DNA from: Nitrobacteraceae bacterium AZCC 2146
Lineage (GTDB): Bacteria > Pseudomonadota > Alphaproteobacteria > Rhizobiales > Xanthobacteraceae
Direction: 5' to 3'
Assembly (NCBI GenBank): GCA_036924855.1
Contig: JBAGRP010000001.1
Span: 2,356,001-2,420,000, forward strand
DNA: 64,000 nucleotides
The number at the start of each line of letters is the position of its first letter. Within the stretch, counting starts at the first letter, position 1. This document shows, in pieces, positions 6,453-63,364 of this stretch. The position numbers and the translations under genes are program-made. The notes beneath the pieces were generated by a model. It was given only the letters and a program-made list of their open reading frames with translations. It ran no database searches and was not told the origin of the DNA.

Positions 6453-6483
6453 ATAAAACTCCGGAAGCTGAGAACCCGCCGAA

Positions 6484-9675: not shown

Positions 9676-10554
9676 ATGAAGCCAGCCCCCTTCAGATACG
9701 TCGCCGCCACGTCGCTCGCCCACGCGCTGGCGCTGAAGTCGGAATATGGCGACGAGGCGAAATTTCTCGCCGGCGGCCAGAGCCTGATGCCGACAATGAA
9801 TTTTCGGCTGGCGCGGCCCATGGTGCTGATCGATATCAACGGGATCGACGAGCTATCCGGCATCCACCTGTCGGAGACAGCACCGACGCGCATCGGCGCC
9901 ATCACCCGCTATCGCGCGCTGGAGCGCGACGCCGCCATCGCCAAGACCTTTCCATTGATCAGCGAAGCGCTGCCCGAAATCGCCCACCCGCAGATCCGCA
10001 ACCGCGGCACCATCGGCGGCAATCTCTCCCATGCCGATCCCGCCTCCGAGATGCCGGCGATATCGGTGGCGCTGCGGGCGCGGCTGCGGATTCAATCGGC
10101 GACGCAGGAACGCTGGGTGGCAGCAGCCGATTTCTTTCTCGGCTCGCTCACCACCGACCTGCAGCCGGATGAGATGCTGACCGAGATCGAACTGCCGCAA
10201 CCAAAACCACGCACCGGTTCCTGCTTCCTGGAGATCGCGCGACGCCGCGGCGATTTTGCCATTGTCGGCATCGCCGCGGTGGTGACGCTGGGTGACAGCG
10301 CACAATGCATCGATGCCCGGCTGGTGTTCTGTGGCGTCGGCGAGATGCCGGTCGATGCCAGCGAAGCGGCGAGCCTCCTCATCGGCCAAACCGTTACCGA
10401 CGATGCGATCTGCGCGGTCGCCGCATCGGCGCAGCAGATGATCGATCCCGGCGGCAGCGTCCACGCTACCGCCGACTATCAGCGCCACATCGCCGGCGTG
10501 CTGACCGAACGCGCGCTGACCGCGGCCAACCGGCGAGCCCACCATGGACAATGA
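9676..10554 (+). CDS. Molybdenum hydroxylase FAD-binding (medium) subunit
   Basis: CoxM/XdhB-type FAD subunit, 292 aa, passing electrons from the iron-sulfur subunit to an acceptor. FAD-binding motifs AGGQSLMPTMNFRLARP (near residues 32-48) and HPQIRNRGTIGGNLSHADPA (near 105-124) are intact, and the C-terminal CO-dehydrogenase-flavoprotein domain follows. First gene of a medium-small-large operon, the order of bacterial CoxMSL-type oxidoreductases. It overlaps the next gene by 11 bp. The substrate is not determined by this subunit. Confidence 0.93.
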   Translation: MKPAPFRYVAATSLAHALALKSEYGDEAKFLAGGQSLMPTMNFRLARPMVLIDINGIDELSGIHLSETAPTRIGAITRYRALERDAAIAKTFPLISEALPEIAHPQIRNRGTIGGNLSHADPASEMPAISVALRARLRIQSATQERWVAAADFFLGSLTTDLQPDEMLTEIELPQPKPRTGSCFLEIARRRGDFAIVGIAAVVTLGDSAQCIDARLVFCGVGEMPVDASEAASLLIGQTVTDDAICAVAASAQQMIDPGGSVHATADYQRHIAGVLTERALTAANRRAHHGQ

Positions 10555-11026
10555 TCTTCACGACATCACGCTGAAGGTGAACGGCACGGCGTATAACGCC
10601 CGCGTCGAATCGCGGCTGCTGCTCAGCGATTTCCTGCGCCATGATCTGGCGCTGGCCGGCACCCATGTCGGCTGCGAACATGGCGTCTGCGGCGCCTGTA
10701 CCGTGCTGCTCGACGGCGAGCCGGTGCGCTCCTGCCTGATGCTGGCGGTGCAGGCGAACCAGCACGCGATCTCCACCATCGAGGGCCTCACCGGCCCGAG
10801 CGGCGACTATCATCCGCTGCAGCAGGCGATGCACGATCACCACGGCCTGCAATGCGGCTATTGCACGCCGGGCATATTGATGACCATGACGGCATTCCTT
10901 GACGAGAACGCCTCGCCCAGCGAAGACGAGGTGCGCGAGGCGCTGTCCGGCAACCTGTGCCGCTGCACCGGCTACCAGAACATCGTCGATGCCGTGATGA
11001 CGGCCGCAGCGCGGATGCGGGGCTAG
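10544..11026 (+). CDS. Molybdenum hydroxylase [2Fe-2S] (small) subunit
   Basis: 160-aa iron-sulfur subunit with both cluster motifs: the plant-ferredoxin type CEHGVCGACTVLLDG with a later Cys in VRSCLM, and the helical-domain motifs CGYCTPG and CRCTGYQNIV. It carries electrons from the molybdenum centre to FAD. No signal peptide is present, so the complex is cytoplasmic. The start codon lies inside the upstream FAD-subunit gene and the stop lies 2 bp before the large subunit start. Confidence 0.95.
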   Translation: MDNDLHDITLKVNGTAYNARVESRLLLSDFLRHDLALAGTHVGCEHGVCGACTVLLDGEPVRSCLMLAVQANQHAISTIEGLTGPSGDYHPLQQAMHDHHGLQCGYCTPGILMTMTAFLDENASPSEDEVREALSGNLCRCTGYQNIVDAVMTAAARMRG

Positions 11027-11028
11027 GG

Positions 11029-13377
11029 ATGTCGACGCGCACTTTCGGCCAGCCGGTCAAACGCAACGAGGACCGCAAGCTGCTCACCGGCCAGGCGCTG
11101 TTCGTCGACGACGTCGAATTGCCCGGCATGCTGCACGTCGCCTTCCTGCGCAGCCAGGTCGCGCATGCGAACATCATCAGCATCGATGTGTCCCGGGCGC
11201 TGCAGCGCCCCGGCGTGATCGCCGCCTATACCGCCGACGACCTCGGCGACTACTGGCGGCACGGGCCGCTATTGGTACCGCCGCCGCCGATTGCCGGCAC
11301 CATCTTCAACGAGCGCACGCATGTGCCGCTCGCCAAGCACAAAATCCGGCATGTCGGCGAGCCGCTCGTCATCGTCATCGCCGAAAGCCGCTACATCGCC
11401 GAGGACGCGCTCGACGAGATAGATATCGAGCTTGAACAGCTTGATGCCGTGGTCGATCTCGAACGCGCCCTCAAAGCCGGCTCCGCCCTGGTGCACGACG
11501 ATGTCGGTTCCAACGTCTCCGCCCATGTGCGGCAGAGCAAGGGCAATTACGCGGCGGCCGCTGCCAGGGCCGACCGCATCATCGCCAGGCGCTTTCACTA
11601 CGAGCACGGCATCTCGTCGCCGATCGAGACTCGCGGTGTGGTGGCGCAGTGGGATCAGCGCGCCAGCCAGATGACAATCTGGGACACCACGCAGGCGCCG
11701 GTGTTCGTCCGCAATGGCCTTGCCGCCATGCTGGGCCTCAACGAACGCAACGTCCGCGTCATCGCGCCGTTCGTCGGCGGCGGCTTCGGGCCGAAGATCA
11801 TGATGTTCTATCCCGAGGAAGTGCTGCTGCCGTGGGTGTCGATGAAGCTTAACCGGCCGGTCAAGTGGATCGAGGACCGGCTCGAGCATTTCTTCGCCAC
11901 CACCCATGAGCGCGGCCAGATCCACGACGCCGAGATCGCGCTGGCGAGCGACGGCCGCATCCTGGGCATCAAGGACGTCTTCCTGCATGACGGCGGCGCC
12001 TATGACCCCTACGGGCTGACGGTGCCGATCAACAGTCAGTGCACGTTGCTGGGCCCCTATGTGGTGCCGAACTACGACAGCACCTTCACGCAGGTCTTCA
12101 CCAACCTGCCGATCGTCACGCCCTATCGCGGCGCCGGCCGCCAGCACGGCGTGTTCGTGATGGAGCGGCTGCTCGATCTCGCCGCGCATGAACTGAACAT
12201 CGACCGCGCCGAAATCCGCCGCATCAATCTCATTCCCGCCGATGCCTTCCCCTACAACAACGAGATCATCTATCAGGATTTTGCCCCGCTTTCCTACGAC
12301 AGCGGCAATTACGAGCCGGTGCTCGATATGGCACTCGAGGCGATCGGCTATGCGGACTTCAAGCAGCAGCAAACAGAAGCCCGCGCGCAGGGCCGCCACA
12401 TCGGCCTCGGCCTCGCCTGCTATGTGGAGGGCACCGGCATCGGCCCCTATGAGGGCGCCAAGGTTCAGGTGCAGTCCAATGGCAAGGTCAGCATCGCCAC
12501 CGGCATCGGCACCCAGGGCCAGAGCCATTTCACCGTGTTCGCACAGATCGCCGCCGAGCAACTCGGCGTCGAGGTCAGCGACATCGACGTGGTCACCGGC
12601 GATACCGACCAGTTCTACTGGGGCGCCGGCACCTTCGCCAGCCGCGGCGCCGTGGTCGCCGGCAATGCGGTCAACGAGGCCGCGAAGGTGGTGCGCCAAA
12701 AGGCGCTGAAACTCGCCAGCGACCTGTTCGAATGCTCGGAAGACGATCTGGTCATCGCCGACGGCAAGGTGTCCATCACCGGCGTGCCCGGCAAATTCGT
12801 CACGCTCGGCGATCTCGCCGCGCGCGCCAATCCGATGCGCGGCGCGGTGAAGCCGGGCACCGAGCCCGGGCTGGAATCGACGCAGTATTTCGGGCCGCCC
12901 AGCGGCGCCACGGCCAATGGCGTCCATGCCATGATCGTCGAAATGGACCCGCGCACGTTTGATCTGAAGATTTTGAAATACGTGGTGGTGCATGACTGCG
13001 GCACCGTGATCAATCCGATGATCCTCGCGGGGCAAATTCACGGCGGCGTCGCGCAGGGGATCGGCAATGCGTTCTTTGAGAAGCTCGCCTTCGACGATCA
13101 GGGCCAACTGCTGAATGCGTCGCTCGCCGACTACCTGCTGCCGACCTCGCTCGACGTGCCGCGCATGGAATTGGATCATACCGTCACGCCGTCGCCGCTG
13201 AATCCGATGGGTATCAAGGGCGCAGGCGAGGCCGGGGCGATTCCGGTCGGCCCGCTGTTCGCGCAGGCCATCGAAGATGCGCTCGACCTGAACAACAAAG
13301 GCGTCGAACTGCTGGAGATTCCGTTGAGCCCGAGCCGGCTGTTCGAACTGACGCGAAAGGCGGGAGAACGCCCATGA
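11029..13377 (+). CDS. Molybdenum hydroxylase large (molybdopterin) subunit
   Basis: 782-aa catalytic subunit of the xanthine-dehydrogenase/CoxL superfamily. The start at 11029 fits the family N-terminus (GQPVKRNEDRKLLTGQALFVDDV). The Moco-binding segment APFVGGGFGPK, the loop TPYRGAGR near residues 364-371, and the catalytic-Glu region KGAGEAGAIPVG near 730-741 are present. The loop lacks the Cys of true CO dehydrogenase (AYRCSFR), so this is a general hydroxylase of an N-heterocycle, aldehyde or purine. Given a barbiturase-family gene nearby, uracil/thymine hydroxylation is a hypothesis. It overlaps the next gene by ATGA. Confidence 0.93.
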   Translation: MSTRTFGQPVKRNEDRKLLTGQALFVDDVELPGMLHVAFLRSQVAHANIISIDVSRALQRPGVIAAYTADDLGDYWRHGPLLVPPPPIAGTIFNERTHVPLAKHKIRHVGEPLVIVIAESRYIAEDALDEIDIELEQLDAVVDLERALKAGSALVHDDVGSNVSAHVRQSKGNYAAAAARADRIIARRFHYEHGISSPIETRGVVAQWDQRASQMTIWDTTQAPVFVRNGLAAMLGLNERNVRVIAPFVGGGFGPKIMMFYPEEVLLPWVSMKLNRPVKWIEDRLEHFFATTHERGQIHDAEIALASDGRILGIKDVFLHDGGAYDPYGLTVPINSQCTLLGPYVVPNYDSTFTQVFTNLPIVTPYRGAGRQHGVFVMERLLDLAAHELNIDRAEIRRINLIPADAFPYNNEIIYQDFAPLSYDSGNYEPVLDMALEAIGYADFKQQQTEARAQGRHIGLGLACYVEGTGIGPYEGAKVQVQSNGKVSIATGIGTQGQSHFTVFAQIAAEQLGVEVSDIDVVTGDTDQFYWGAGTFASRGAVVAGNAVNEAAKVVRQKALKLASDLFECSEDDLVIADGKVSITGVPGKFVTLGDLAARANPMRGAVKPGTEPGLESTQYFGPPSGATANGVHAMIVEMDPRTFDLKILKYVVVHDCGTVINPMILAGQIHGGVAQGIGNAFFEKLAFDDQGQLLNASLADYLLPTSLDVPRMELDHTVTPSPLNPMGIKGAGEAGAIPVGPLFAQAIEDALDLNNKGVELLEIPLSPSRLFELTRKAGERP

Positions 13378-14225
13378 TCCTCATCACCGGCGCCGGCGGC
13401 AAGACGGGCAAGGCTGTCATCGCGGCGCTGCTGGCGCGCGGCGCCAAGGTGCGCGCCTTTGTGCGCAGCGCGGCGCATGAGGATGCGCTGAAAAAAATCG
13501 GCGCCAGCGATGTCGCAGTCGGCGCTCTGGACGATGAAGCGGCGTTGTTGCGTGCCATGCAGGGCGTGGTCGCGATCTATCATATCTGCCCCAACGTGAG
13601 CCCGCATGAGGTCATGTTCGCCGAAGCTGTCATCGCCGCGGCGGAGGCCGCCGAGGTGCCGCGCTTCGTCTATCACTCCGTCTTGCATCCGCAGACCGAG
13701 GCGATGCCGCATCATTGGGCCAAGCTAAAGGTCGAGGAGATGCTGTTCAGCTCAGAGCTCAATGTCACCGTCCTGCAGCCCACCGCCTATATGCAGAACA
13801 TCCTCGCCGAATGGGATCGCATGAAGCGCGAAGGCATCTTTCGCGTGCCCTACCCGGTCGAGACGCAACTCAGCCTCGTCGACCTCGACGACGTCGCCGA
13901 GGTGGCGGCGCTGGTGCTAACGTCAGACGGTCATGCCAATGCGACCTATGAGCTGGTCGGCACGCCACCGCTGAGCCAAGCAGAGGTTGCGGAAGCATTC
14001 GCAACCGCGCTCGGCCAGCTGGTGCGCGCCGAAGCCGAATCCGTCAAGGCCTGGCAGCAGCGCGCCCGCCTGGGGGGCATGGACGAGCACACGCTCACGA
14101 CGCTGACGAAAATGTTCGTCAGCTACGCCGGCGACGGGCTGAAGGGCAATCCGAACGTGCTGGGCTGGCTGCTCGGACGTAAGCCAGCGACGCTGGCAGA
14201 TTTCGCGGCGCGGGTCGCATTCTGA
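13374..14225 (+). CDS. NmrA-like NAD(P)-binding protein (atypical SDR)
   Basis: 283-aa Rossmann-fold protein of the atypical short-chain dehydrogenase class (NmrA/TMR/HSCARG-like). The nucleotide loop ILITGAGGKTGKAVIAALLARG opens the protein and RAFVRS follows; there is no classical YxxxK pair in the usual place, but VYHSVLHP and TVLQPTAYMQNIL are typical of NmrA-like proteins. It is translationally coupled to the large subunit (ATGA), so it belongs to the hydroxylase operon, perhaps as a reductase or redox sensor (inference). Confidence 0.85.
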   Translation: MILITGAGGKTGKAVIAALLARGAKVRAFVRSAAHEDALKKIGASDVAVGALDDEAALLRAMQGVVAIYHICPNVSPHEVMFAEAVIAAAEAAEVPRFVYHSVLHPQTEAMPHHWAKLKVEEMLFSSELNVTVLQPTAYMQNILAEWDRMKREGIFRVPYPVETQLSLVDLDDVAEVAALVLTSDGHANATYELVGTPPLSQAEVAEAFATALGQLVRAEAESVKAWQQRARLGGMDEHTLTTLTKMFVSYAGDGLKGNPNVLGWLLGRKPATLADFAARVAF

Positions 14226-14260
14226 GCTCTATTAAGTTGAACCGACCCAACACAAGCACT

Positions 14261-14388
14261 GTCATTCCGGGATGCACCCCAGCCGGCGAAAGCCGGATGG
14301 GGTGCAGGCCCGGAATCCATACTCTCTGCAGCGGTTATGGATTCCGGGTTCGCTCGCAGCTTTCGCTGCTCGCGCCCCCGAATGACAG
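14261..14388. repeat. Intergenic palindromic repeat (GTCATTCCGGG type)
   Basis: Long inverted repeat between the convergent hydroxylase operon and amidase gene. Outer arms are GTCATTCCGGGATGC and its imperfect complement ending GAATGAC; inner arms include GGAATCCAT/ATGGATTCC. The same family recurs near 24586, 25703 and 37059. Confidence 0.75.
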
Positions 14389-14416
14389 TCTTTGAAAGCG
14401 ATCGCGCAGCGCAACA

Positions 14417-15826
14417 TCACCCATATGTCGGCCACCCGATCGGATGCAGCTGCTGCACGATCTTCATCGCCGACAGGATCAGCGGTTCCTCGAAGCGCGG
14501 GCCGACGATCTGGATGCCCACCGGCAGGCCGTCGTCGGTCATGCCCGCGGGCACCGCGCCGCCGGGCAGGCTCATCAGCGTGATCAGGAACGAGCCGGCG
14601 ATCCAGTCGGTGTAGTTGTCGAGCTTCTTGCCGTTGATCTCGGTCGGGAAGTTCATCTCCACCGGAAACTGTTTGACGGGCGATTGCGGCGTGATCAGCA
14701 GATCGTAGCTCTCGAAGAACTTCGCGAAGCGCAGGAACAGCTCCTGCCGCTTCTGCTCGGAGGCGGCGAATTCCAGCGGCGTCACTTTCAGGCCGGCCTT
14801 GACGTTGCCCTTCAGGTTGACGCCGAACTCCTCGAGCTGACCGAGATTGGCAAATTGCTGGCCGACCATCCACAGCCCGCGCCACGCCTGATACGGCTCC
14901 TTGCCGTCGGAAATATCGAAGCTGATTTCTTCCACGGTCGCGCCGGCGTCGCGCAGCGACAGCGCACAGGCGCGGCAGATGGTGTCAATTTCGGGATCGA
15001 CCCCGATTCCGGAAATATCCGAGACATAGGCGATGCGCAGGCCTTTCACATCCTGCGCCTTGGCGACGATGGCGCGCGCGCTGGCCCAGGGCGGCGCCAC
15101 CGAAATCGGCGACATCCGGCTGTAGCCGACCAGCGCATCGAGCATCAGCGCGGCATCCTCCGCGGTGCGCGCCAGCGGGCCATGCACCTGGCCGGGATCC
15201 CACGCCATCGGCATCGGCCAGTTCGGCGTCAGGCCAGGCGTCGGGCGAATGCCGACAATGCCGTTGAACGAGGCCGGCATGCGGATCGAGCAGCCGAAGT
15301 CCGTACCCTGCGCCAGCGGCACCATGCCGGTGGCAACAGCGACGGCCGAGCCGCCTGAAGAGCCGGACGGGCTGAGCGCCGGATTCCACGGATTACGCGT
15401 CACGCCGAACACGTCGTTGAACGTATTGGCGCCGGCAGCGAATTCCGGCGTGTTGGTCTTGCCGAGCACGATGGCGCCGGCGGCCTTCAGCCGCCTGACA
15501 GCTTCGGCGTCCTCGGTCGGCACATTGTCCACAAAACGCGGCGAACCATAGGTGGTGCGAATGCCCGCGGTCGGCGTGACGTCCTTGATCGCCAGTGGCA
15601 GCCCATGCAGCGCGCCGAGCGTGTCGCCGCGCATCACGGCGGCTTCGGCCTCTTTCGCCGCTGTGCGCGCGCGGCCGTCGGCCAGCGTCACGATGGCGTT
15701 GAGTTTCGGGTTGACGCGCGCGATGGTTTCGAGATGCGCGTCAAGCACTTCGACCGGGCTGACGGCCTTGCTGGATATTAGCGACGCGAGTTCGCACGCG
15801 GTCTTGCGCGAGAGATTTTCGGGCAT
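14417..15826 (-). CDS. Amidase-signature family hydrolase
   Basis: 469-aa amidase of the Ser-cisSer-Lys family. The catalytic Lys is in LPLAIKDVTPTAG, and the Gly/Ser-rich signature SPSGSSGGSAVAVATGMVPLAQGTDFGCSIRMPA carries both serines. Substrate cannot be read directly; members cleave aryl, glutamyl, biuret or ureido amides. Its position at the end of an operon with a barbiturase/cyanurate-hydrolase homologue suggests ureidomalonate or biuret-type substrates (inference). I start it at 15826, preceded by GAGGAG with good spacing; an ATG at 15847 lies in the repeat. The long open frame to 16639 is out-of-frame reading of the permease gene. Confidence 0.9.
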   Translation of the reverse strand: MPENLSRKTACELASLISSKAVSPVEVLDAHLETIARVNPKLNAIVTLADGRARTAAKEAEAAVMRGDTLGALHGLPLAIKDVTPTAGIRTTYGSPRFVDNVPTEDAEAVRRLKAAGAIVLGKTNTPEFAAGANTFNDVFGVTRNPWNPALSPSGSSGGSAVAVATGMVPLAQGTDFGCSIRMPASFNGIVGIRPTPGLTPNWPMPMAWDPGQVHGPLARTAEDAALMLDALVGYSRMSPISVAPPWASARAIVAKAQDVKGLRIAYVSDISGIGVDPEIDTICRACALSLRDAGATVEEISFDISDGKEPYQAWRGLWMVGQQFANLGQLEEFGVNLKGNVKAGLKVTPLEFAASEQKRQELFLRFAKFFESYDLLITPQSPVKQFPVEMNFPTEINGKKLDNYTDWIAGSFLITLMSLPGGAVPAGMTDDGLPVGIQIVGPRFEEPLILSAMKIVQQLHPIGWPTYG

Positions 15827-15842
15827 GTCGTTCTCCTCGTTC

Positions 15843-15923
15843 GTCATTGCGAGGAGCACTTGCGACGAAGCAATCCAGCCTTCGCTTGCGGCCTCTGGAT
15901 TGCTTCGCTGCGCTCGCAATGAC
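15843..15923. repeat. Intergenic palindromic repeat (GTCATTGCGAGG type)
   Basis: Inverted repeat with outer arms GTCATTGCGAGG and GCTCGCAATGAC and inner arms GAAGCAATCCAG and CTGGATTGCTTC. It separates the permease and amidase genes of one operon and is closely similar to the copy at 54639-54719. Confidence 0.8.
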
Positions 15924-15939
15924 GGAGTTGCGTATGAAT

Positions 15940-16701
15940 TTATTTCCCGGCCCAGTGCACGAAGCGGCGCTCGATGCTGAGAAACAGCAGGTTGAGGCCG
16001 TAACCCAGCGCGCCGGCGGCGAAGATCGCGGCATACATGTCCGGCATTTCGAACATCTGCTGCGCCTCGAACACCCGCTGGCCGAGGCCGTCCACCGAGC
16101 CGATGAACATCTCGGCGACCACGACGATCACCAGCGCCAGCGAGACGCCGTTGCGCAGGCCCACAAAAGTCGCCGGCATCGATTCCAGCAGCATCACATC
16201 CCACAGCACACGGACGCGCGACGCACCCATCACCTTGGCCGCGAGAATCCGAGTCTTGCGCGCATTCATCACGCCATAAGCGACGTTGAACAGGATGACG
16301 AGCGCGGCGCCGAACGCCGCCACGGAAATCTTGGTGCGGTCGCCGACACCGAACAGCACAAGAAACAGCGGAAACATCGCGGACGCCGGCGTCGAGCGGA
16401 AGAAGTCGATCAGGAATTCCACCGAGCGATACAGCTTTTCCGAAGAGCCGAGCAGAATGCCGAGCGGAATCGCGATGACGGCGGCGATGATGGTGGAATA
16501 GATCGTGCGTTCCACCGTCTTGAGGAAGTCGATGCCGAGCTTGCCGTGGAACATGCCAGCCCACATCGCCTTGAAGGTGGCGATCGGCGACGGCAGCAGC
16601 ACGGGATCGACGATCCGCATCCAGACCGTGAACGACCACACCGCCAGCAGCACGATGACGCCGACGAAGGGCAGAAGAACTTCGAGACGCTTCCAGTTCA
16701 T
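15940..16701 (-). CDS. ABC importer permease (second NMT1-type importer)
   Basis: 253-aa inner-membrane permease of the SsuC/TauC family. The first helix LLPFVGVIVLLAVWSFTVWM, DPVLLPSPIATFKAMW, the TPASAMFPLFLVLFG helix and the coupling loop AAKVMGASRVRVLWDVMLLESMPATFVGLRNG are standard. It begins 4 bp after the ATPase stop and completes the importer with the ATPase and binding protein immediately upstream. A single permease implies a homodimeric channel, in contrast to the importer at 5.5-9.4 kb. Confidence 0.92.
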   Translation of the reverse strand: MNWKRLEVLLPFVGVIVLLAVWSFTVWMRIVDPVLLPSPIATFKAMWAGMFHGKLGIDFLKTVERTIYSTIIAAVIAIPLGILLGSSEKLYRSVEFLIDFFRSTPASAMFPLFLVLFGVGDRTKISVAAFGAALVILFNVAYGVMNARKTRILAAKVMGASRVRVLWDVMLLESMPATFVGLRNGVSLALVIVVVAEMFIGSVDGLGQRVFEAQQMFEMPDMYAAIFAAGALGYGLNLLFLSIERRFVHWAGK

Positions 16702-16705
16702 GGCA

Positions 16706-17527
16706 TCACCCCTTGCGCACTTCGCGCTGGAAAATCTCCAGGCAATGCGCCTTGGTGCTGATGAAATCAGACTCGGTCATGGTCCTGTCGGTGCGCGGTC
16801 GCGGCGCGTCGTAATGCACGAATTCGACGGCGCGCGCCGGATGCCGCGACAGCAGCAGGATGCGGTCGGACAGGTACACCGCCTCCTCGAGATCGTGAGA
16901 GACCAGCACCGTGGTGGTGTGGGTCTCGACGAAGACGCGCTGCAGCTGTTCGCGCATGAACAAGGTCATCTCGTAATCGAGCGCCGAGAACGGTTCATCG
17001 AGAAACAGGATTTCCGGGTCCACCACCAGCGCGCGCATGATCGACACCAGCTGCTGCTGGCCGCCGGACATCTGGTAGGGATACAGCTTCAGATCAATCT
17101 TGACGTTGAGATTGGCGACGATCTTCTCGACGCGGACGACGCGATCCTTCTTCGGCACACCCATCACCTTGAGAGGATAGGCGATGTTGTCGAAGGCGCT
17201 CAGCCAGGGAAACACGGCTTCGCGGTAGTTCTGGAACACGTAGCCGAACTTGATCTTGTTGAGCGGCTGGCCGTCGAACAGGATCTCGCCCGCATCCATC
17301 GGAAACAGCCCGGCGATCATGTTGATCAGCGTGCTCTTGCCGCAGCCGTTCGGCCCAAATACCGACATCAGTTTGCCGCGCGGAATGTCGAAGTCGAAAT
17401 TGTCGTAGATGGTGGCGTCGGAAAACCGCTTGCTCAGGCCACGAATGGTGACATGCGGCGCGGTCCGCGTTGCCGCGGCCCGCGCCTTCTCCGACAGTTC
17501 GATCTTGGCAGCAGGCTGTGCCGTCAC
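16706..17527 (-). CDS. ABC importer ATP-binding protein
   Basis: 273-aa ATPase. Walker A GPNGCGKST, Q-loop GYVFQNYREAVFPW, signature MSGGQQQL, Walker B ILFLDEPFSALD and the H-loop VLVSHDLEEAVYL are intact. The start is a GTG at 17527, 7 bp downstream of the binding-protein stop; no better ATG precedes the conserved IRGLSKRFSDATIYDNF region. The signature has Gln-Leu rather than Gln-Arg after GGQQ, a small variation. Confidence 0.92.
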   Translation of the reverse strand: MTAQPAAKIELSEKARAAATRTAPHVTIRGLSKRFSDATIYDNFDFDIPRGKLMSVFGPNGCGKSTLINMIAGLFPMDAGEILFDGQPLNKIKFGYVFQNYREAVFPWLSAFDNIAYPLKVMGVPKKDRVVRVEKIVANLNVKIDLKLYPYQMSGGQQQLVSIMRALVVDPEILFLDEPFSALDYEMTLFMREQLQRVFVETHTTTVLVSHDLEEAVYLSDRILLLSRHPARAVEFVHYDAPRPRTDRTMTESDFISTKAHCLEIFQREVRKG

Positions 17528-17534
17528 GAGAACC

Positions 17535-18512
17535 TCAATACTTGTAGATGTATTTGGTGACGTCGAGCTTTTCCGGAACCACGCCGATCGAGGTGCCGAA
17601 GTCAGACAGCTTCTGCAGGTCGCCGATCTGCTTCGGCGTCATGTCCTTGGTCATGGTGTAGCCGAGCATCGACACCATATCGACCACGTTGTCGGGCGTG
17701 AACGTGTTCTTGGCGAGATACTTGCGGGCATCATCGGGATTCTTGTTGATGTAGTCGAGCGCCTTGGACCAGGCCATCGCGAAGCGTTTTGCGACTTCCG
17801 GGCGCTTCTGGATGAAGTCGCTGGTGATGGCGCAGCCCGCCGCATAGGCGTCGGCCTTCTCGTCACCGAGAATGTATTTCGAGATCACGCCGGCCTCGAG
17901 CGTTCGCGCCACGCCGGCCTTGATCATCATCGAGGCGTTGGGTTCCAGCGTGTAGCCACCGTCGAAGGTACCGGCGGTCATGGCGTTGACGTGCTGGCTC
18001 ATGTCGAGCTGGTCGATGGTATATTCGCCATCCTTGACGCCGTTCTTGGCCAGAATGCCCTTGGCGGTGTTGAGGTTGGCTGGGCCCGGCGCCGACATCA
18101 GCTTCATCCCCTTCAGATCGGAGATCTTGTCGGCCTTGACGCCGGTGCGGACGACGAATTGCTCCATCTTCCAGACCGGGGTCTGGCTGTTGAGCGCGAT
18201 GTACATCGCCACGCCCGGCTTCTTGATGTTGGCGTTGAGGCCTTCGAGCGTGACGAGGACCGCGGAGACCTCGATCTGGCCGGTGATCATCGCCGCGACA
18301 TTGGCCGGGCCGCCCATCAGCTTGGTCATTTCCGGCTCGATGTTCTGCTCCTTGAAGAAGCCCTTCTCCACCGCCACGAAATACGGCAGCGACGAGCTCA
18401 GCGGAAACACACCGACCGCGACCTTGTCCTGGGCCGACGCCCGGTCGGTGGTGAAACCGGCCAGAGCCAGCACCGCCACCATGGCGAACATCATCCGATT
18501 CAGCGATTTCAT
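17535..18512 (-). CDS. ABC importer substrate-binding protein (NMT1/TauA-like)
   Basis: 325-aa periplasmic binding protein. The ATG at 18512 begins a clear signal peptide (MKSLNRMMFAMVAVLALAGF, cleavage near RASAQ) and has an AGGAG site upstream. The mature protein opens VAVGVFPLSSSLPYFVAVEKGFFKEQNI and has LKGMKLMSAPGPANLNTAKGILAKNG, as in SsuA/TauA/NMT1 proteins. It is cotranscribed with the barbiturase-family gene upstream and the ATPase and permease downstream, so its ligand is probably a cyclic amide or the substrate of that pathway. Confidence 0.92.
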   Translation of the reverse strand: MKSLNRMMFAMVAVLALAGFTTDRASAQDKVAVGVFPLSSSLPYFVAVEKGFFKEQNIEPEMTKLMGGPANVAAMITGQIEVSAVLVTLEGLNANIKKPGVAMYIALNSQTPVWKMEQFVVRTGVKADKISDLKGMKLMSAPGPANLNTAKGILAKNGVKDGEYTIDQLDMSQHVNAMTAGTFDGGYTLEPNASMMIKAGVARTLEAGVISKYILGDEKADAYAAGCAITSDFIQKRPEVAKRFAMAWSKALDYINKNPDDARKYLAKNTFTPDNVVDMVSMLGYTMTKDMTPKQIGDLQKLSDFGTSIGVVPEKLDVTKYIYKY

Positions 18513-18613
18513 GCGTCGTGCTCCTGTTATCCTCATGGCGAGGCCCCTCGCGACAAAATTCCACTCGCCGGATCGCGGCGATTGCCCAATTTCAGAGCAA
18601 GACTCGTGCCGGT

Positions 18614-19708
18614 TTATTCGCCGACATCGACGATGGCGATCACCGGGCCGCCGCCATGCGGGCCCTGATGCATGGCGTCCACCGAGACGAATACCGCGGG
18701 ATCGCCGATCGCCAGCGCCGCGATGCTGCCCACCGCCGCCTTGGAGTGGCGGTGGTGATGGACGTCGGAATCGTCGAGCATGATCTGGCGGCGGCCGCGC
18801 AGCTGGCCGGTGCGGTCGGCCTCGCATTTCATGAAGCAATTGACGACGCGGCCCTTGAGGTCTTCCGAGCGCGGCCGCTCCGGCAGCTCGATTCCGGCGT
18901 CGCGGATCGAATCGTAGATGCCGTCGATGTCGAGAGCGTCCTTCATCACCGAATGGCCGATCCGATAGCGTCCGCCGGCGCCGGCCTTGTTGCCGAGCAG
19001 CACGATCTGCGCCTGCGTCAATTCGACGCCCGACGAGCACGACGCGACCGCCGAATAGAGATCGAGGTCTTTGCAGATCTGTTCGGCGCGGGGCATCGGC
19101 ACTTCGCCAAGCGCGACCGCGATGCCGAGCGCGGTGGTGCCGTTGGAGACGCCCATGGAATCATGGACCTCGCAAGCCAGCGTCTGGCCGCGGGATTCCG
19201 CGTCGCGGGTGGAGTCGATGGTCAGCAGCGGCGTCTTGGTCTGGACGTAGTGCACATCCCGGGGATCGGTAATCCCCGCATCCTTCATCGCCGCCTTGAC
19301 GGCGTCGGCGACCTTCTGGACCATGGCGAGACGGCCGATATCCTCCGGCAGCAATTCGGCTGACAACGCGGTACCGATCACCAAACGCGATTTGTCGGCG
19401 GGGCCGATCTTGGCGTTGCGCGCGAAGATGGTGGCGTGTGGTGTGATGACGCCGTCGCAGCCGCCGGACCACACCATCGGCACGTCGTGGATCTCATCCT
19501 CGGAGCGCGTGCCGTGCTTCTTCAGCACGCGGCGATAGGCCTGGTCGGCGAGAATGCGGGTGAAATCGTTGACGCCGCCATTGCCTTCGGTCTTGCCGAT
19601 CACGCCGATCACTTCATCCGCGCCGAATTGGCCCGACGTGATCAGCGCCTCGAGGCCGCTGGCATCCTGAACGGTCTTCAGCTCGACCTTCGCCACTTCA
19701 ATCGCCAT
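18614..19708 (-). CDS. Ring-opening amidohydrolase, barbiturase / cyanuric acid hydrolase family
   Basis: 364-aa enzyme of the unusual three-domain AtzD/barbiturase family, found only in this fold. The three repeated units each offer a Lys and a Ser: Lys39 (GKTEGNG) with Ser81 ([12 protein letters not shown]), Lys158 (VQTKTPLL) with Ser225/226 (SCSSGVEL), and Lys294 (CFMKCEA) with Ser342 ([10 protein letters not shown]). The terminal [14 protein letters not shown] is typical. The reaction would be hydrolytic opening of barbiturate to ureidomalonate or of cyanurate to carboxybiuret; sequence alone does not tell which. The genomic setting (molybdenum hydroxylase and amidase nearby) leans towards barbiturate. 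It lies 4 bp after the GST gene in the same operon. Confidence 0.93.
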
Positions 19709-19712
19709 TCTC

Positions 19713-20483
19713 TCAAACTCCTGAAACGTAAGATTTCTGTATCAACGGCAGCGGCGCCGGAATGCGCTGGCCTGCTTTTGGAAGTGCTTCCCGATAGCCG
19801 GGACGATCCTTGATGCGTGCGATCCAGTTCTGAACCGCCGGCTTGTTCGACCACATCCCGGCAAAGTTCAGTTCCTCGAGCCTGTCGACAAATGGCGCAA
19901 TCGAAATATCCGCAAGCGAAAATGCATCGCCGCCAAACCATCGCGATTGTTGAAGGCGCGCTTCCATTTTGTCCAGCGCCTTGACCATGACCACCCGCGC
20001 TGCCTCGACCTCGGCAAAATCCGGCGCGAGGCTACGCGACGCATCGCGCAGCCGCGCGGCCTTCTCAGCCGTCGGCGCAAACGCGATCCGCTCCTCGATC
20101 AATGCCGCCGGCATCTCCGCGAACGCCTTGCGCAGCATGAGCTGATAGGTCGGTCCCTTGACGGCCGGATGCAAAACCTCTTCTTCGAACCTGACCCAGA
20201 GCCGCATCTGCGCCCGCTCGAACGGATCGGCCGGCGAAAGTCGTGGCCCGTCGAAACATTCGTCGATGTACTCATTGATGACCGACGACTCAACGATGAT
20301 GCGACCATCGTGCAGCACCGTCGGAACCACCCCTTTCGGATTCAGCGCCAGATAGTCCGGCATGAGCTGTTCCATCCGCTGCAGGTCGATGTGACGGCCC
20401 ACCCATGGCACGCCCTTCTCGGCCAGACAGAATCGCACCTTGATGCAACAAAACGCGTCCCAATCGTGGTAGAGTTCAAACAT
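19713..20483 (-). CDS. Glutathione S-transferase family protein
   Basis: 256-aa GST. The N-terminal thioredoxin-like domain runs from [24 protein letters not shown] to [18 protein letters not shown], with VPTVLHDGR (cis-Pro) and ESSVI (glutathione-binding Ser). The helical domain includes [15 protein letters not shown]. The length is a little above the usual 200-220 aa. Start at 20483 coincides with the beginning of the fold. It is placed tightly between hyuB (7 bp) and the barbiturase-family gene (4 bp), so it likely has a catabolic or thiol-adduct role in that pathway rather than general detoxification (inference). Confidence 0.9.
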
Positions 20484-20490
20484 CGCGATC

Positions 20491-22387
20491 CTAGGGTGTG
20501 GCTCGCATCCGCGGCAAGTGCTCGCCGCGCAGCATCTTTTCATAGCCCTCGCCGCGGTCAATCATCGGCAGGTTGCCCGAACGCGACTTTGCCAGATCGG
20601 CGCGCCGCGCCGACGTCGCGGCCTCGTCGATGGCAGGCTCATCCGCCGAACTGCCGGCGGTAAAAACGACGCCGTAGTCGGACGCGGCAGCCGCCAATGA
20701 TACCCGGCCTTCGATCACGTCGCGCAATACCAGCGGCAGTTCGCGCGTCAGCGGATCGCCCCAGCCGCCGCCACCGGTGGTGACCACGCGCACCACCTGC
20801 CCCTTCAGCACCTGCTCGCCATCGACGAGGCCGCCAAGATCGCGCGCCTCGCCTTCGGCATCGACGGTGACGCAGAACGGCTCACCGGCCTTGCCGCCAT
20901 TCAACCCGTAGCAGCCGAGCCGCACGCGATCGGCGGTGACGATGGTGCGGCAATCCACCAGCGCGCGGTAATGTTTCTCATAGCCCTGCCCCGCCGCGGC
21001 GCAGACCGGCGCCGCCGGAGTCGGTGCTCAAAGCCAGCTTCTCCACCAGCAGCGGAAACCGCGTCTCGGTGAATTCCGCCGGCTGGTTGCGCGAATCCGG
21101 CACGATGTGGATGGCGTCATTGCCGTCGGCGTAATAGCGCCCGCCGGAACCGCCGCCGAGCACTTCGCGCGACAGAAACGATTTGCCCTCCGCGTCCTTG
21201 CCGAAGAAGCCGGTGTAACGGATGGTTTCCTGATCCGCCGGCATCCGGCCGTCCACTGCCTGCGCGACGACGCCGGCTAAGAGGCCGAGGCAGCGCAGCA
21301 GCACGAAGGAGCGCGCATTGGTCGCCGCCGGCCATTCCGGCGTGATCAGCGTGCCCTTCGGCGGGAAGATGATCTCGAACACATCGCAGACGCCTTCATT
21401 GACGTGGATTTCCGCGGCGCGTTCCGGCGTATCGGCGAGGTTGCGCAGGATCGGCGCGATCCATTTGATCAGGAACGCGCCGTCGGCATAATCCGCCGGC
21501 CAGTTGATCGGCCCGGTGGATTGCGGATCGGTACCGTTGAAGTCGAGCGTGATCTTGCCGCCCTTCTTCGTCATCTTGATCGCGATCTTGTGCAGCTTGG
21601 GATCAGTGATGCCGTCGTGCTCGACGTAGTCCTCCCAGGCATATTCGCCGTCGGCGATCTTGCTCAGGAGTTCGTGGCGGTAGATGTCGCGGCACTTCTC
21701 AAGGATAGCCTGGAAGCAGGCCTCGACCTGGTCCTTCCCGAAACGTTCGAACAGCCCGGCCATTCGCCGCGCGCCCATCAGGCAGGCCTGCACCTCGCTG
21801 TCCAGATCGGCGGACAGCATCTCCGGCACCCGGGTGTTGCGCCGGACGATGGTGAACACCGCCTCGTTGCGCACGCCTTCGCTGTAGATTTTTACGGGCG
21901 GAATCGCGATGCCTTCCTCGAACACCGTCGCCGCCGTGCCCGGCATTGAGCCCGGCACCCTTCCGCCGACATCGTCGTGATGGCCGAAGGCCTGGATGTA
22001 GGCGACCACAACGCCGTCATGAAACACCGGCACCGTGCTGCATAAGTCGGGCAGATGGCCGATCGAGCCTTCGGTGAGATAAGTGTCGTTCATCAGGAAC
22101 ACGTCGCCAGGCTTCATGGTCTCCGGCGGAAAGTCGCGCACCACGCCGTTGGGCATCGCCGAATAGGAACGCCCCGTCAGCTTGCGGCAGTAACAATCGA
22201 ACAGGCCGACGCGAAAATCATGTGCTTCGCGGATCATCGGCGAGCGCGCGGTGCGCTCGATGGCGTATTCGATTTCCGCCTCGATGGAATTCAGCGTGCC
22301 TTCGACGATCTGCAGCACGATGGGATCGACGGTCGTGGCTTCGCGCAAGGGCGCGGTCGGCCAGGGATGGGTCTTGTGCATGTTCAT
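20491..22387 (-). pseudogene. hyuB: HyuB (hydantoinase B / oxoprolinase subunit), frameshifted
   Basis: Beta subunit of the HyuAB ATP-dependent hydantoinase/5-oxoprolinase/acetone-carboxylase family, split by one frameshift. The first frame (22387 to a TGA at 20978) ends STDSGGAGLRRGG then reads out. The second frame (to 20491) continues GYEKHYRALVDCRTIVTADRVRLGC. The two join perfectly if one base is removed from the run of four C (plus strand) at 20989-20992. Rejoined, the protein is about 630 aa, the normal HyuB length. Either the gene is inactivated, or this is a sequencing error or a slippage site. The start at 22387 shares one base with the hyuA stop and has AGGAGG upstream. Confidence 0.85.
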
Positions 22388-24471
22388 CACACCACCTCCT
22401 TCGCCGACACGGGGCGAATAACCAGAATGCCGTGCGGATCGACCTCGACGCTCTGCTTCGGGAACACCACCGTGGTGGAGCCGAATTCCTCGACAATGGC
22501 CGGGCCCAGCACGCGCCCGCCGGGCGGCAACGAGGCACGGTCATAGACCGGCGTGTCCTGAAACACGGTGCCGAAATACACGCTGCGGTGGGCGATCGCC
22601 GCCGGGTTGCCGGCGCGCGGTGCCAGTTTCGGCATCTGCGGCCGCTCGATCAGGCCGAAGCCGGAGACACAGAGATTGACCAGTTCGATCTTCTGCTGGC
22701 CGGCATAGTCATAGCCGAAGGTCTTGCGATGCGCGGCGTTGAACGCGCCGATCAGCCCCGCGAGGAACGAGGCATCGACCGCGCCCGACGGCGCAGTGAT
22801 ACGTACTTCCATCGACTGACCGGCGTAGCGAACATCGGCCTCGCGCACCAGACGGATCCGCGACGCCTCGATGCCATCGCGCATCAGCGTCGCCGTCGCC
22901 TCGCGCTCCAGCGTCGCATAACGCGTCGCGATATCGGCGAGATCGATGGCGTCCTCATGCATCACCTTGGTGACGATGTGATCGGTGCGCCAGTCCACCG
23001 CCAGCAGGCCGAATGCCGAGAGATTGCCGGGGTTCGGCGGCACGATGCAGGCCTTCATGTTCAGCAAGTCCATCACCGCCGCGGACTGCGCGGGGCCGGC
23101 GCCGCCGAACGACAGCAGAGCGAATGTGCGGGGATCGATGCCGCGCTGGATCGTCATCTGCCGGATTGCATTGGCCTGGCTCCAGTTGGCAATCTCGATG
23201 ATGCCGGAGGCCAGTTGTTCGACGCTCATATTGCCCGGCAAACGCTCAGCGAGCGCCGCGATACCCGCGCGGGCGCGTTCGACATTGAGCGCGATGCCGC
23301 CGCCGATCAGCGACGGCGGGATCCGCCCGAGCACCAGATTGGCGTCGGTAATGGTCGGCTCCTGGCCGCCCTTCGGGTAGCACATCGGTCCAGGCTCGGC
23401 GCCAGCGCTGCGCGGCCCGACTTTCAAATGACCTTCGCGGCTGATCCAGGCGATCGAACCGCCGCCGGTGCCGATGGTCTCGATGTCAATCATGGGAATG
23501 CGAACCGGGAACGGTCCGACCGAACCACCATTGGTGACCTGCGGCTTACCGCCTTCGATCAGGCACAGATCGGTGGAAGTGCCGCCGGCATCCAGCGTCA
23601 CCAGATCGGGAAAGCCCGCAATTTCCGCAATCACCGCGCTGCCGAGCGCACCCGCTGCCGGGCCGGACAACGCCGTGGTGATCGGCTTCTTCACCACCTG
23701 ATCGGCGCTGGCGACACCGCCGCTGGATTGCATCACCAGGAACGGCTTGTCCTGTAGCCCGGCGCCGAGTTCTTCGTGCACGCGCTTGAGATAGCGTTCC
23801 ATATGCGGCTTGACGAAAGCATCGACCAAAGTGGTCACCGTGCGCTCATATTCGCGATATTCCGGCAGCACTTCGCAGGACAGCGACAGCGTCGCCTCCG
23901 GATATTCCTCGGTAACGATGGCCGCGGCGCGGCGCTCATGGGCGTCGTTGGCGTAGGAATGCAAAAGGCAGATGCCGATGGCGCGAATACCCTTGCCGCG
24001 GAAAAAGCGCGCCGCCGCGCGCACCGTGTCCTCGTCGAGCGGACGCAACTCGCCGCCGCGAAAATCCAGCCGGCCGGTGACCTCGCGGACGAATTGCAGC
24101 GGCACGATACGGTCGGGCTTCACCCAGAAGTAGGAATTGCCGTAGCCTTCCGGCACCGACTGCCGCGCGATCTCCAGAATGTGCCGGAAGCCGGCATTGA
24201 CGATCAACCCGAGCGAATTGATCTCGCCCTGCAGCAGCGCATTAGTTGCGACGGTCGTGCCATGCGCGAGACCGACCACATCGTCGCTCCCGGCGTCGTG
24301 AGCGGCAAGAATTTCGTTGACGCCGCGCAACAGCGCGATGCCGGGATTGGCCGGCGTGCTCGCGACTTTCGTCACCTTGGTGGCGCCGGAGATCGTGTCC
24401 ACCGAGACGATGTCGGTAAAAGTACCGCCGGTATCGATGCCGATGCGAAAGCGGGGAGAAGCCTGGGACAT
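22387..24471 (-). CDS. hyuA: HyuA (hydantoinase A / oxoprolinase subunit)
   Basis: 694-aa alpha subunit of a hydantoinase/oxoprolinase-type enzyme with ASKHA (actin-like) ATPase fold. Phosphate-binding motifs FRIGIDTGGTFTDIVSV at residues 8-24 and DAGGTSTDLCLIEGG at 294-308 are intact, as are GTTVATNALL and the SGPAAGALGS stretch at 269-278. The usual HyuA length is 680-710 aa. With HyuB it would hydrolyse or carboxylate a cyclic amide or ketone at the cost of ATP; the operon favours a hydantoin-like or cyclic ureide substrate. First gene of a long minus-strand operon. Confidence 0.93.
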   Translation of the reverse strand: MSQASPRFRIGIDTGGTFTDIVSVDTISGATKVTKVASTPANPGIALLRGVNEILAAHDAGSDDVVGLAHGTTVATNALLQGEINSLGLIVNAGFRHILEIARQSVPEGYGNSYFWVKPDRIVPLQFVREVTGRLDFRGGELRPLDEDTVRAAARFFRGKGIRAIGICLLHSYANDAHERRAAAIVTEEYPEATLSLSCEVLPEYREYERTVTTLVDAFVKPHMERYLKRVHEELGAGLQDKPFLVMQSSGGVASADQVVKKPITTALSGPAAGALGSAVIAEIAGFPDLVTLDAGGTSTDLCLIEGGKPQVTNGGSVGPFPVRIPMIDIETIGTGGGSIAWISREGHLKVGPRSAGAEPGPMCYPKGGQEPTITDANLVLGRIPPSLIGGGIALNVERARAGIAALAERLPGNMSVEQLASGIIEIANWSQANAIRQMTIQRGIDPRTFALLSFGGAGPAQSAAVMDLLNMKACIVPPNPGNLSAFGLLAVDWRTDHIVTKVMHEDAIDLADIATRYATLEREATATLMRDGIEASRIRLVREADVRYAGQSMEVRITAPSGAVDASFLAGLIGAFNAAHRKTFGYDYAGQQKIELVNLCVSGFGLIERPQMPKLAPRAGNPAAIAHRSVYFGTVFQDTPVYDRASLPPGGRVLGPAIVEEFGSTTVVFPKQSVEVDPHGILVIRPVSAKEVV

Positions 24472-24724: not shown

Positions 24725-25618
24725 TCACCCCTTCAGCATATCCCGCAGCTTCAGCAGCGCCGCTTCCTTGCGCCGGGACATCGGCTGCCTCCGCCGGAAC
24801 AGGCTGAAGGCGACGTTGCGCGCCGGCGCGATGGCCATCGCCTTCAGGAAGCCGAGCGCCACCTCGTTCGCGGCGCAGGCGCGCGGCACGATGGCGATGC
24901 CGCCGCCGGACTGCACGATCATCTTGATGGTCTCGATATTATCCACCACCGCCAGCACGTTGGGACGGATGCCCAGATCGGTGAACAGCGACAGCACCAC
25001 CTGGCCGTAGCCGACGGTGAGTTCGCTCATGATGAAAGGCTCGGCAAGCAACCGCCCGATATCCACCGGCTGCTTGCTGCGCGCCAGTGCGTGTTTCGGC
25101 GGAATGATCAGCGCCATCTCGGCATCGATCAACCGGTCGAACACCAGCCCGGCCGGCAGTCGCTCCGGGTCGGATTCGATGGCGAGGCCGGCGTCGATCC
25201 GCTCCTCGTGCAATTCGGTGAAGATGTTGCGCGTCGGCGCCGTCAGAATCTCCAGCCGCACGCCGGGCAGATTGTTCCTGAGATCGTCGAACAGCCGCGG
25301 AATGAAGATCTGCGCCATGCCCGAACCCATGGCGATGGTCAGCGTATCCGACAACGCGCCGCGCAGCCGCCGCGCAGTGTCGGTGAGGCTGAGCAGATCG
25401 CCCATCACCCGCTCGGATTCATAGAGAAAGGTGCGGCCGCGATCGGTGGATTCGATGCCGCGCGAGGTCCGCGTGAACAGTTCGAAGCCGATTTCCTCCT
25501 CGAGCAGTTTGACCTGCTCGCTGACCGCGGATTGCGAAATATTCAGCCGCTTCGCCGCCTTGGTGAAGCTGCGTTCCTTCGACACCGAAAGCGCGTAACG
25601 CAATTGCCGGAAATCCAA
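24725..25618 (-). CDS. LysR-family transcriptional regulator
   Basis: 297-aa LysR regulator. The N-terminal winged helix is FRQLRYALSVSKERSFTKAAKRLNISQSAVSEQVKLLEEEIGFELFTRTSRGIE, and the effector-binding domain follows (TIAMGSGMAQIFIPRLFDDLRNNLPGV). I propose the TTG at 25618 as the start, because the family N-terminus begins exactly there and AAGGA lies 7 bp upstream; the longer ATG frame to 25762 runs through a repeat. Gene order and strand suggest it controls the hyuA-to-amidase operon. Confidence 0.88.
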   Translation of the reverse strand: MDFRQLRYALSVSKERSFTKAAKRLNISQSAVSEQVKLLEEEIGFELFTRTSRGIESTDRGRTFLYESERVMGDLLSLTDTARRLRGALSDTLTIAMGSGMAQIFIPRLFDDLRNNLPGVRLEILTAPTRNIFTELHEERIDAGLAIESDPERLPAGLVFDRLIDAEMALIIPPKHALARSKQPVDIGRLLAEPFIMSELTVGYGQVVLSLFTDLGIRPNVLAVVDNIETIKMIVQSGGGIAIVPRACAANEVALGFLKAMAIAPARNVAFSLFRRRQPMSRRKEAALLKLRDMLKG

Positions 25619-25649
25619 ATGAACATTCCTTGATGGACAGCCCACTTGT

Positions 25650-25761: not shown

Positions 25762-25772
25762 ACGGTCAGACT

Positions 25773-63360: not shown

Positions 63361-63364
63361 GATG

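Follow-up and report, generated by a model that had tools for sequence, protein, structure and literature searches.

The 64,000-nucleotide stretch of DNA analysed here (the window; bases 2356001-2420000 of the single 7.64 Mb contig of Nitrobacteraceae bacterium AZCC 2146, a soil alphaproteobacterium) carries two convergent operons. Together they form a catabolic island that is real and conserved, and its best reading is a variant of the known pathway of oxidative uracil/thymine catabolism. One operon encodes a molybdenum (Mo) hydroxylase (9676-14225, + strand), and the other, running from 24471 to 14417 on the - strand, encodes HyuAB, a protein of the GST family, the ring-opening amidohydrolase gene bar, an ATP-binding cassette (ABC) importer and an amidase; the ends of the two operons are 191 bases apart. 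Breakdown of uracil and thymine via (methyl)barbiturate and ureidomalonate to malonate and urea is probably what this locus encodes; the route has been little studied and is known mainly from Rhodococcus. An earlier note on the same DNA had described a Mo hydroxylase operon convergent on an operon with a barbiturase-family gene, an NMT1 importer, an amidase and HyuAB, and the genes were indeed found at or near the places it gave, with curated-family scores far above chance in family scans of the window proteins. Its oxidative pyrimidine reading was favoured by the closest solved structure of the bar protein, by the specificity residues, by the tree and by the gene neighbourhoods.

The ring-opening enzyme and its specificity residues

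The PF09663 domain of the bar protein is full length (residues 4-361 of 364). When the protein was compared with solved structures, the barbiturase 5hwe gave 498 bits and the cyanurate hydrolases at most 322 bits (6bum), and the aligned identity was 65.3% to 5hwe compared with 47.2, 44.9 and 41.9% to three cyanurate hydrolases. Passages of PMC4051656 describe the dyads of the PF09663 (Toblerone) family, with three serine and three lysine residues plus a conserved arginine, and the roles of these residues; the seven catalytic/arginine columns read K, R, S, K, S, K, S in the window protein and in all 117 aligned rows. The relatives in this alignment were gathered by peptide patterns of the window protein, and the best 80 of 108 were used.

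Five positions separate barbiturase from cyanurate hydrolase activity according to passages of Peat and colleagues (PMC3758960), which give the barbiturase signature (group VI, EC 3.5.2.1) as Asn195, His321, Lys325, Val345 and Ser/Ala346 in AtzD numbering. The corresponding cyanurate hydrolase (AtzD) signature is Arg195, Thr321, Arg325, Gly345 and Gly346. At these positions the window protein reads N/H/K/V/D, 5hwe N/H/K/V/S, two actinobacterial relatives N/H/K/V/A and three solved cyanurate hydrolases R/T/R/G/G. Thus the comparison of active-site residues proposed in the earlier note gave four of the five published barbiturase residues and none of the five cyanurate ones. Over the 117 rows, the signatures were NHKVD (83, the window included), RTRGG (25), RERGG (6), NHKVA (2) and NHKVS (1).

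In a tree of 67 rows that we selected out of the 117, the barbiturases and the window clade stood apart from the 31 cyanurate-type rows with a support of 100/100, and the NHKVD clade, supported at 97/98, was placed beside the actinobacterial barbiturases. The grouping with cyanurate hydrolases that the earlier note had allowed for did not occur. Since the residue at position 346 is neither Ser nor Ala, the window protein represents a sister clade of the characterised barbiturases and does not lie within group VI. Judged by its residues and its ancestry, the bar protein most likely works like a barbiturase. Its named relatives come from Tardiphaga metagenome-assembled genomes (MAGs; 99 and 96%) and a Bradyrhizobium MAG (92%), and a gene of this type was found in three of 297 genomes of the order (at least 77%; window genome counted), the next matches being at most 46%.

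Gene neighbourhoods, the molybdenum hydroxylase and HyuAB

We examined 84 barbiturase-type loci. Those with flanks of 5 kb or more on each side (45 loci, one of which, L148, was added later) were compared with 21 cyanurate-type control loci whose flanks reached up to ~9 kb. The presence of neighbours was determined by tblastn (E 1e-15, with identity floors set by us), and matches were counted within 9 kb. Genes for HyuA, HyuB and the amidase were each present in 24 of the 45 barbiturase-type loci and in none of the controls, and the three ABC importer genes in 23-24 of the 45 and two of the 21; a LysR relative lay within 9 kb of bar in 21 of the 45 long loci. Uracil/cytosine genes (uracil phosphoribosyltransferase, URC1, URC4 and the cytosine-deaminase family) occurred in 17 of 45 loci compared with 0 of 21 controls (Fisher p 6e-4), and cytosine-deaminase-family genes alone in 12 of the 45 (p 0.007), although all p values here are optimistic because barbiturase loci supplied the probes and are related by descent. 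The URC1-type match (PRK07198) reached 751 bits against a cut-off of 403 and that of uracil phosphoribosyltransferase 271.6 against 114, and URC4 was matched as DUF1688 (PF07958); we take PRK07198 to be URC1 and DUF1688 to be URC4. Passages of PMC7530994 describe what URC1, URC4 and URC6 do in yeast uracil catabolism. Genes for URC1, URC4 and uracil phosphoribosyltransferase stand together in L004, L005, L044 and L073, the first two of which are among the nearest relatives of the window, and bar, amidase, malonyl-CoA decarboxylase and MatB genes form a run in L067 and L148. Gene neighbours of this kind suggest that uracil enters the pathway and malonate leaves it, in line with the barbiturate route. 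In L009, the cytosine-deaminase-family protein scored below the family cut-off (354.9 of 438), and its substrate is therefore unsure. Rejected as a member of the unit was the CN-hydrolase gene at 4097-5179 (0 of 45 barbiturase-type loci, 3 of 21 controls), and so were gene clusters 25-27 found downstream of bar in L026, L028, L056 and L070, which by their L028 copies are MetH-type, homocysteine methyltransferase and methylenetetrahydrofolate reductase genes.

The known uracil-thymine dehydrogenase has three subunits, and the Mo hydroxylase of the window is a candidate for this enzyme. The dehydrogenase genes were reportedly described by Soong et al. in 2024. In L012, L021 and L050, Mo hydroxylase genes of the window type stand between hyuB and bar; L005 and L006 have them in the convergent arrangement, L034 upstream and L078 downstream, after the amidase gene. 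An NmrA-like gene directly follows moL in L005, L006, L182 and L183 as well. In Embleya L084 (Actinomycetota), bar, a Mo hydroxylase (46%), NmrA, HyuAB, a carbamate-kinase-family gene and an NCS2-type permease lie within 31 kb. Forty-five Mo hydroxylase sequences were submitted for a tree and 41 were retained by the program; the window type formed a clade of ten (100/100), nine of which come from barbiturase genomes (in L146 with the barbiturase on another contig). The tenth, L145, belongs to a genome without a match to the bar protein, and its gene neighbours are an amidase, a MatB-type malonyl-CoA synthetase (757.6 bits, cut-off 558), NCS1 and NCS2 permeases, a cyclase-family gene and an M20 gene; the nearest named families of the permeases are allantoin (below the cut-off) and xanthine (over the cut-off).

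A whole-genome search, for which 33 of the 84 loci were submitted (31 records, namely 30 genomes and the Embleya plasmid; L067 and L083 left out), detected the window-type Mo enzyme (75-88%) in six of 30 barbiturase genomes, in L015, L029 and L049 outside the fetched bar flanks. Thus the idea that every barbiturase genome has such an enzyme failed. Among genomes of the order without a barbiturase-type gene it was found in one of 294, in a search that scored at most three candidates per genome, the 30 and the 294 genomes being drawn from different groups. The link between Mo hydroxylase and barbiturase is strong, but not universal. Possible non-molybdenum makers of barbiturate were observed after bar: an FAD_binding_3 monooxygenase in L026 (11117-12352; Pfam), with an open reading frame of similar size in L028 (11136-12356), and a luciferase-fold monooxygenase in L033 (3224-4534). 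The window itself encodes a further Mo-hydroxylase-type protein at 61165-63735, adjoining HlyD and MFS genes; UbiD and M20 genes are found nearby.

The hyuB gene stops in frame 1 at 20978, and its tail continues to 20491 in another frame. The cause is a GGGG run at 20989-20992 where L003, L004, L005 and L006 have GGG, which is either a real frameshift or an assembly error; hyuB is open past 560 codons in 32 of the 34 relatives with room for the full gene. HyuA is closest to N-methylhydantoinase 7hk5, followed by 5-oxoprolinase, and HyuA and HyuB scored 519.3 and 147.3 (the latter for the broken frame 1 only) against caprolactamase CapAB cut-offs of 1000 each (NF050156 and NF050157). According to passages of PMC11033972, the N-methylhydantoinase of Pseudomonas putida can spend ATP on rings that are left unopened, and thus the substrate of HyuAB cannot be read from its family. 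HyuAB was not found in loci with bar and amidase such as L057, L067, L073 and L148, suggesting that it is probably dispensable for the core route. The operon seems to have a mosaic history, as HyuA of the window is 83% identical to that of L003 and L004 (whose lysR, hyuB and bar are 89-99%) and 89% to that of L005.

The earlier note had counted GST and HyuAB as extra parts of the pathway. HyuAB is supported as a part by its conservation (24 of the 45 long loci), whereas GST was rejected as a member of the conserved unit: L003-L006 lack it between hyuB and bar, and a similar gene occurs at that place only in L038, L058 and L064 (three of 84 loci). All of the genes that the note had named are present, with hyuB split by the frameshift and GST outside the conserved unit, and the unit extends further than was described, to the LysR-type gene and the importer at 5466-9354.

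The proposed route and its alternatives

In the proposed route, an ABC importer would take up the pyrimidine or a derivative, and the heterotrimeric Mo hydroxylase would hydroxylate the ring carbon beside a ring nitrogen, converting uracil into barbiturate and thymine into 5-methylbarbiturate. The PF09663 enzyme would then open barbiturate to ureidomalonate by Ser-Lys chemistry, and the amidase, which keeps GSSGG and the GTDFGCSIR stretch and is the natural candidate for the ureidomalonase, would split ureidomalonate into malonate and urea. Malonate could enter central metabolism via malonyl-CoA synthetase and malonyl-CoA decarboxylase, and urea via urease; the genome encodes elsewhere MatB (874 bits, over the cut-off), two malonyl-CoA decarboxylases and a urease alpha subunit (189 bits). 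For HyuAB, whose B gene is frameshifted in the assembly, our guess is ATP-dependent opening of a cyclic amide beyond the reach of the barbiturase, such as a 5-substituted barbiturate. As the genome also contains a cluster of URC1, URC4 and uracil phosphoribosyltransferase genes at 683 kb and three dihydropyrimidinase-type genes over the cut-off, the organism may have more than one route of pyrimidine use. A dihydropyrimidinase/D-hydantoinase-type gene (578 bits, over the cut-off) lies at 2422546-2423898, ~2.5 kb right of the window.

Besides the optimistic p values, several points weigh against oxidative uracil/thymine catabolism. Gene content, ancestry, active-site residues and neighbourhoods are observed and every reaction is inferred, the Mo hydroxylase and the amidase being candidates for the dehydrogenase and the ureidomalonase. 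The type of ABC importer also occurs by two of the 21 cyanurate-type loci, and neither malonyl-CoA synthetase or decarboxylase genes (6 of 45 compared with 0 of 21, p 0.17) nor Mo hydroxylases related to that of the window (7 of 45 compared with 0 of 21, p 0.087) are significant alone. The Mo hydroxylases linked to bar do not form one clade overall (six label changes in the tree), those of L009, L040, L065, L079, L080 and L084 falling outside the window-type clade, and 24 of the 30 barbiturase genomes searched had no Mo hydroxylase more than 52% identical to that of the window, so that another enzyme may feed the barbiturase there, barbiturate may be imported or the MAGs may be incomplete. Purine-catabolism genes lie near the locus. 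Finally, the fifth signature residue is Asp, not Ser/Ala, throughout the window clade, and the substrate could therefore differ.

The Asp-bearing clade might thus have a related ring as its substrate, either a 5-substituted barbiturate or some other cyclic ureide, made by the Mo hydroxylase, in a pathway analogous to, but not identical with, uracil catabolism. Asp occupies AtzD position 346 in 83 of 83 clade sequences and is absent from 5hwe, L083, L084 and the 31 cyanurate-type rows, an invariance partly favoured by the search, since the pattern DAMHQGPH used to gather relatives contains that Asp; the presence of HyuAB as an extra ring opener in 24 of the 45 long loci points the same way. However, some relatives have URC/uracil phosphoribosyltransferase and malonate genes close to bar, which fits uracil in and malonate out, and it is plain barbiturate that gives malonate. 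We consider a different ring unlikely.

The Mo hydroxylase could also belong to a neighbouring purine pathway, or to that of another heterocycle, and merely lie beside a separate barbiturate operon. At 1705-5179, a cluster likely to serve purine (urate) catabolism comprises an OHCU decarboxylase/HIUase fusion, a polysaccharide-deacetylase-type (allantoinase-like) gene, DUF3830 and the CN-hydrolase, and no gene in the genome exceeded the TIGR02965 xanthine dehydrogenase cut-off; these observations, and the 24 barbiturase genomes without this type of Mo enzyme, would agree with a purine role. However, a xanthine-dehydrogenase-like Mo gene that lies a short way beyond the window, at genome position 2351890 and ~4 kb from the purine genes, is the better match (278 compared with 232 bits), the window-type enzyme is encoded inside the hyu-bar operon in L012, L021 and L050, and the window enzyme scored 398 against the XdhA cut-off of 780. 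A purine role is only disfavoured by these three points, and we regard it as distinctly improbable.

Catabolism of cyanuric acid (s-triazine) by an AtzD-type hydrolase, the alternative raised in the earlier note, has in its favour the NCBIfam 'cyanuric acid amidohydrolase' equivalog NF052395 (444.8 against a cut-off of 360 for the bar protein), but is very hard to maintain: a cyanuric acid hydrolase identity of bar was rejected on the residues (0 of 5), on the position outside the cyanurate clade at 100/100 and on a second PF09663 gene in the same genome (L002; RTRGG, 57% identity to AtzD) that fits the role and gives cyanurate its own candidate, and the amidase scored far under the cut-offs for AtzE (TIGR02715; 193.6 of 425.75) and AtzF (TIGR02713; 178.5 of 511.05). 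That the Mo hydroxylase is an aerobic carbon monoxide dehydrogenase, as might be read from the score of its Mo subunit just under the cut-off of NCBIfam NF040766 CODH_aero_grp5 (938.7, cut-off 950), is scarcely credible, because quinoline 2-oxidoreductase 1t3q is the nearest solved structure (520.7 bits compared with 507.9 for CoxL 8uem) and the identity was rejected on the active-site motif, with PYRGAGR aligned to AYACSFR of 8uem in place of the AYxCSFR loop that we take to mark form I of the enzyme. Databases often label the key enzyme 'cyanuric acid amidohydrolase'. As NF052395 accepts a barbiturase-clade protein above its cut-off, such automatic names mislead, and NF052395 and NF040766 are likely sources of wrong database names.

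Oxidative uracil/thymine catabolism may have a second form in relatives of the locus. FdrA/AllF- and/or AllG-type genes lie near bar in ten of the 84 loci (L030, L032, L043, L045, L046, L049, L061, L069, L075 and L086), four of which have less than 5 kb on one or both sides of bar. In L032, L061 and L069 a carbamate-kinase-family gene is located between these genes, followed in L032 and L069 by malonyl-CoA decarboxylase and synthetase genes; the L069 protein is just below the cut-offs of TIGR00746 (314.9 of 358.25) and PRK12352 (264.7 of 266). An amidase match was present in one of the ten (L030, in two pieces) compared with 33 of the 74 others (Fisher p 0.044), and among loci with 5 kb on both sides in one of six compared with 24 of 38 (p 0.07), a mutual exclusion that is marginal. 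L045 is a 3.7 kb contig labelled as a Klebsiella pneumoniae MAG, with bar and an FdrA-type gene resembling that of betaproteobacterial L043, and probably comes from a mislabelled or mixed bin.

PMC11326118 describes AllFGH of Escherichia coli as converting oxalurate into oxamate and carbamoyl phosphate. Since ureidomalonate is the one-carbon homologue of oxalurate, a phosphorolytic ureidomalonate step in the AllF/AllG relatives is, by analogy, a reasonable proposal. On a wider view, which is possible though doubtful, barbiturate catabolism would be a modular island over several phyla: ureidomalonate would be handled by the amidase or by an AllF/AllG-type transcarbamoylase giving malonamate and carbamoyl phosphate, from which carbamate kinase would make ATP, and the Asp-clade barbiturase and HyuAB would be tuned to uracil- and thymine-derived barbiturates. 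If true, this phosphorolytic branch would add to pyrimidine catabolism a so far undescribed route that conserves energy. allFGHK genes beside biuret genes in nitrifiers are described in passages of PMC12625717, in the main text of which the string 'barbitur' is absent, and none of nine open-licence PMC papers contained both barbiturase and AllF/AllG terms.

Layout of the locus and comparison with known systems

The features are listed below. Adjacent genes mostly overlap or are a few bases apart, with gaps of ~100 bases before the substrate-binding protein gene and before the amidase gene. The order of transcription on the - strand (25762-14417) is LysR-type gene, hyuA, hyuB, GST, bar, substrate-binding protein, ATPase, permease and amidase; the first of these is presumably of LysR type, judging from its sequence. 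A second importer (5466-9354), a possible accessory of the locus, lies left of, and divergent from, the Mo operon, and its ATPase and permease genes adjoin moM in L005 and L006 too. A 27-base interspersed sequence with one variable base has two copies, at 15897-15923 (between permease and amidase) and 54693-54719, with 0 expected in shuffles.

Table 1. Genes of the two convergent operons and of their flanks (window coordinates)
Feature	Position	Strand	Evidence
moM, FAD subunit of Mo hydroxylase	9676..10554	+	PF00941 + PF03450
moS, [2Fe-2S] subunit of Mo hydroxylase	10544..11026	+	PF00111 + PF01799
moL, molybdopterin subunit	~11029..13377; ORF (open reading frame) opens at GTG 10957	+	PF01315, PF02738, PF20256; 1t3q 520.7 bits; PYRGAGR
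NmrA-like NAD(P)-binding protein, fourth gene of Mo operon	13374..14225	+	PF05368
Amidase-signature enzyme, candidate ureidomalonase	14417..15826 (alternative Met 15847)	-	PF01425, 340.7 bits
ABC importer permease	15940..16701	-	PF00528
ABC importer ATPase	16706..17527	-	PF00005
NMT1/SsuA-type substrate-binding protein	17535..18512, start taken at MKSL	-	PF09084, TIGR01728
bar, barbiturase-clade ring-opening amidohydrolase	18614..19708	-	PF09663, 466 bits, E 9.7e-140; 5hwe match; signature N/H/K/V/D; tree
GST-family protein, rare insertion between hyuB and bar	19713..20483	-	PF13409, PF13410
HyuB (hydantoinase B), frameshifted	20491..22390	-	PF02538 in two frames; alignment to L003-L006
HyuA (hydantoinase A), N-methylhydantoinase-like	22387..24471	-	PF01968, PF05378, PF19278; 7hk5 472.8 bits
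LysR-type regulator upstream of hyuA	24725..25762, likely start near 25627	-	sequence
Second NMT1-type ABC importer	5466..9354 (substrate-binding protein 5466-6539, permease 7611-8534, ATPase 8524-9354)	-	PF09084, PF00528, PF00005

Passages of PMC3758960 and PMC4051656 present the oxidative pyrimidine route as rare and its characterised barbiturase as coming from Rhodococcus, and no described barbiturase locus with Mo hydroxylase and HyuAB in Proteobacteria was found in searches of open-licence PMC papers. If our reading is true, various Proteobacteria, and MAGs labelled Rokubacteria, encode this route or one closely analogous to it, and the locus supplies candidates from outside the Actinomycetota for the genes of the dehydrogenase and the ureidomalonase. 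It also raises a residue-level question (Ser/Ala to Asp) and a second possible fate of ureidomalonate.

Among known systems, E. coli AllFGH (PMC11326118) resembles the FdrA/AllF- and AllG-type genes near bar in relatives, three loci of which add a carbamate-kinase-family gene; the substrate would be ureidomalonate, not oxalurate, and an AllG match was not found in the window genome. The ATP-dependent HyuAB enzymes N-methylhydantoinase and caprolactamase are related through HyuA, which is closest to 7hk5, whereas the window proteins are under the CapA/CapB cut-offs, with separate A and B genes and B frameshifted. Quinoline 2-oxidoreductase (1t3q), among the CoxL-like hydroxylases, is the best solved match of the Mo enzyme and is likewise built of FAD, [2Fe-2S] and Mo subunits, but at only ~520 bits its substrate is not transferable. 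With the AtzD/TrzD cyanuric acid hydrolases the bar protein shares the PF09663 family and all seven checked catalytic/arginine positions, but differs at all five substrate-determining positions and belongs to a separate clade. The closest likeness is to the pathway of Rhodococcus erythropolis JCM 3132 (uracil-thymine dehydrogenase, barbiturase and ureidomalonase), which the window matches with a barbiturase-clade enzyme 65% identical, a three-subunit Mo hydroxylase, an amidase as candidate ureidomalonase and malonate/urea genes in the genome; it differs in being alphaproteobacterial, in having Asp for Ser/Ala at one active-site position and in the addition of HyuAB, an ABC importer and a LysR-type gene.

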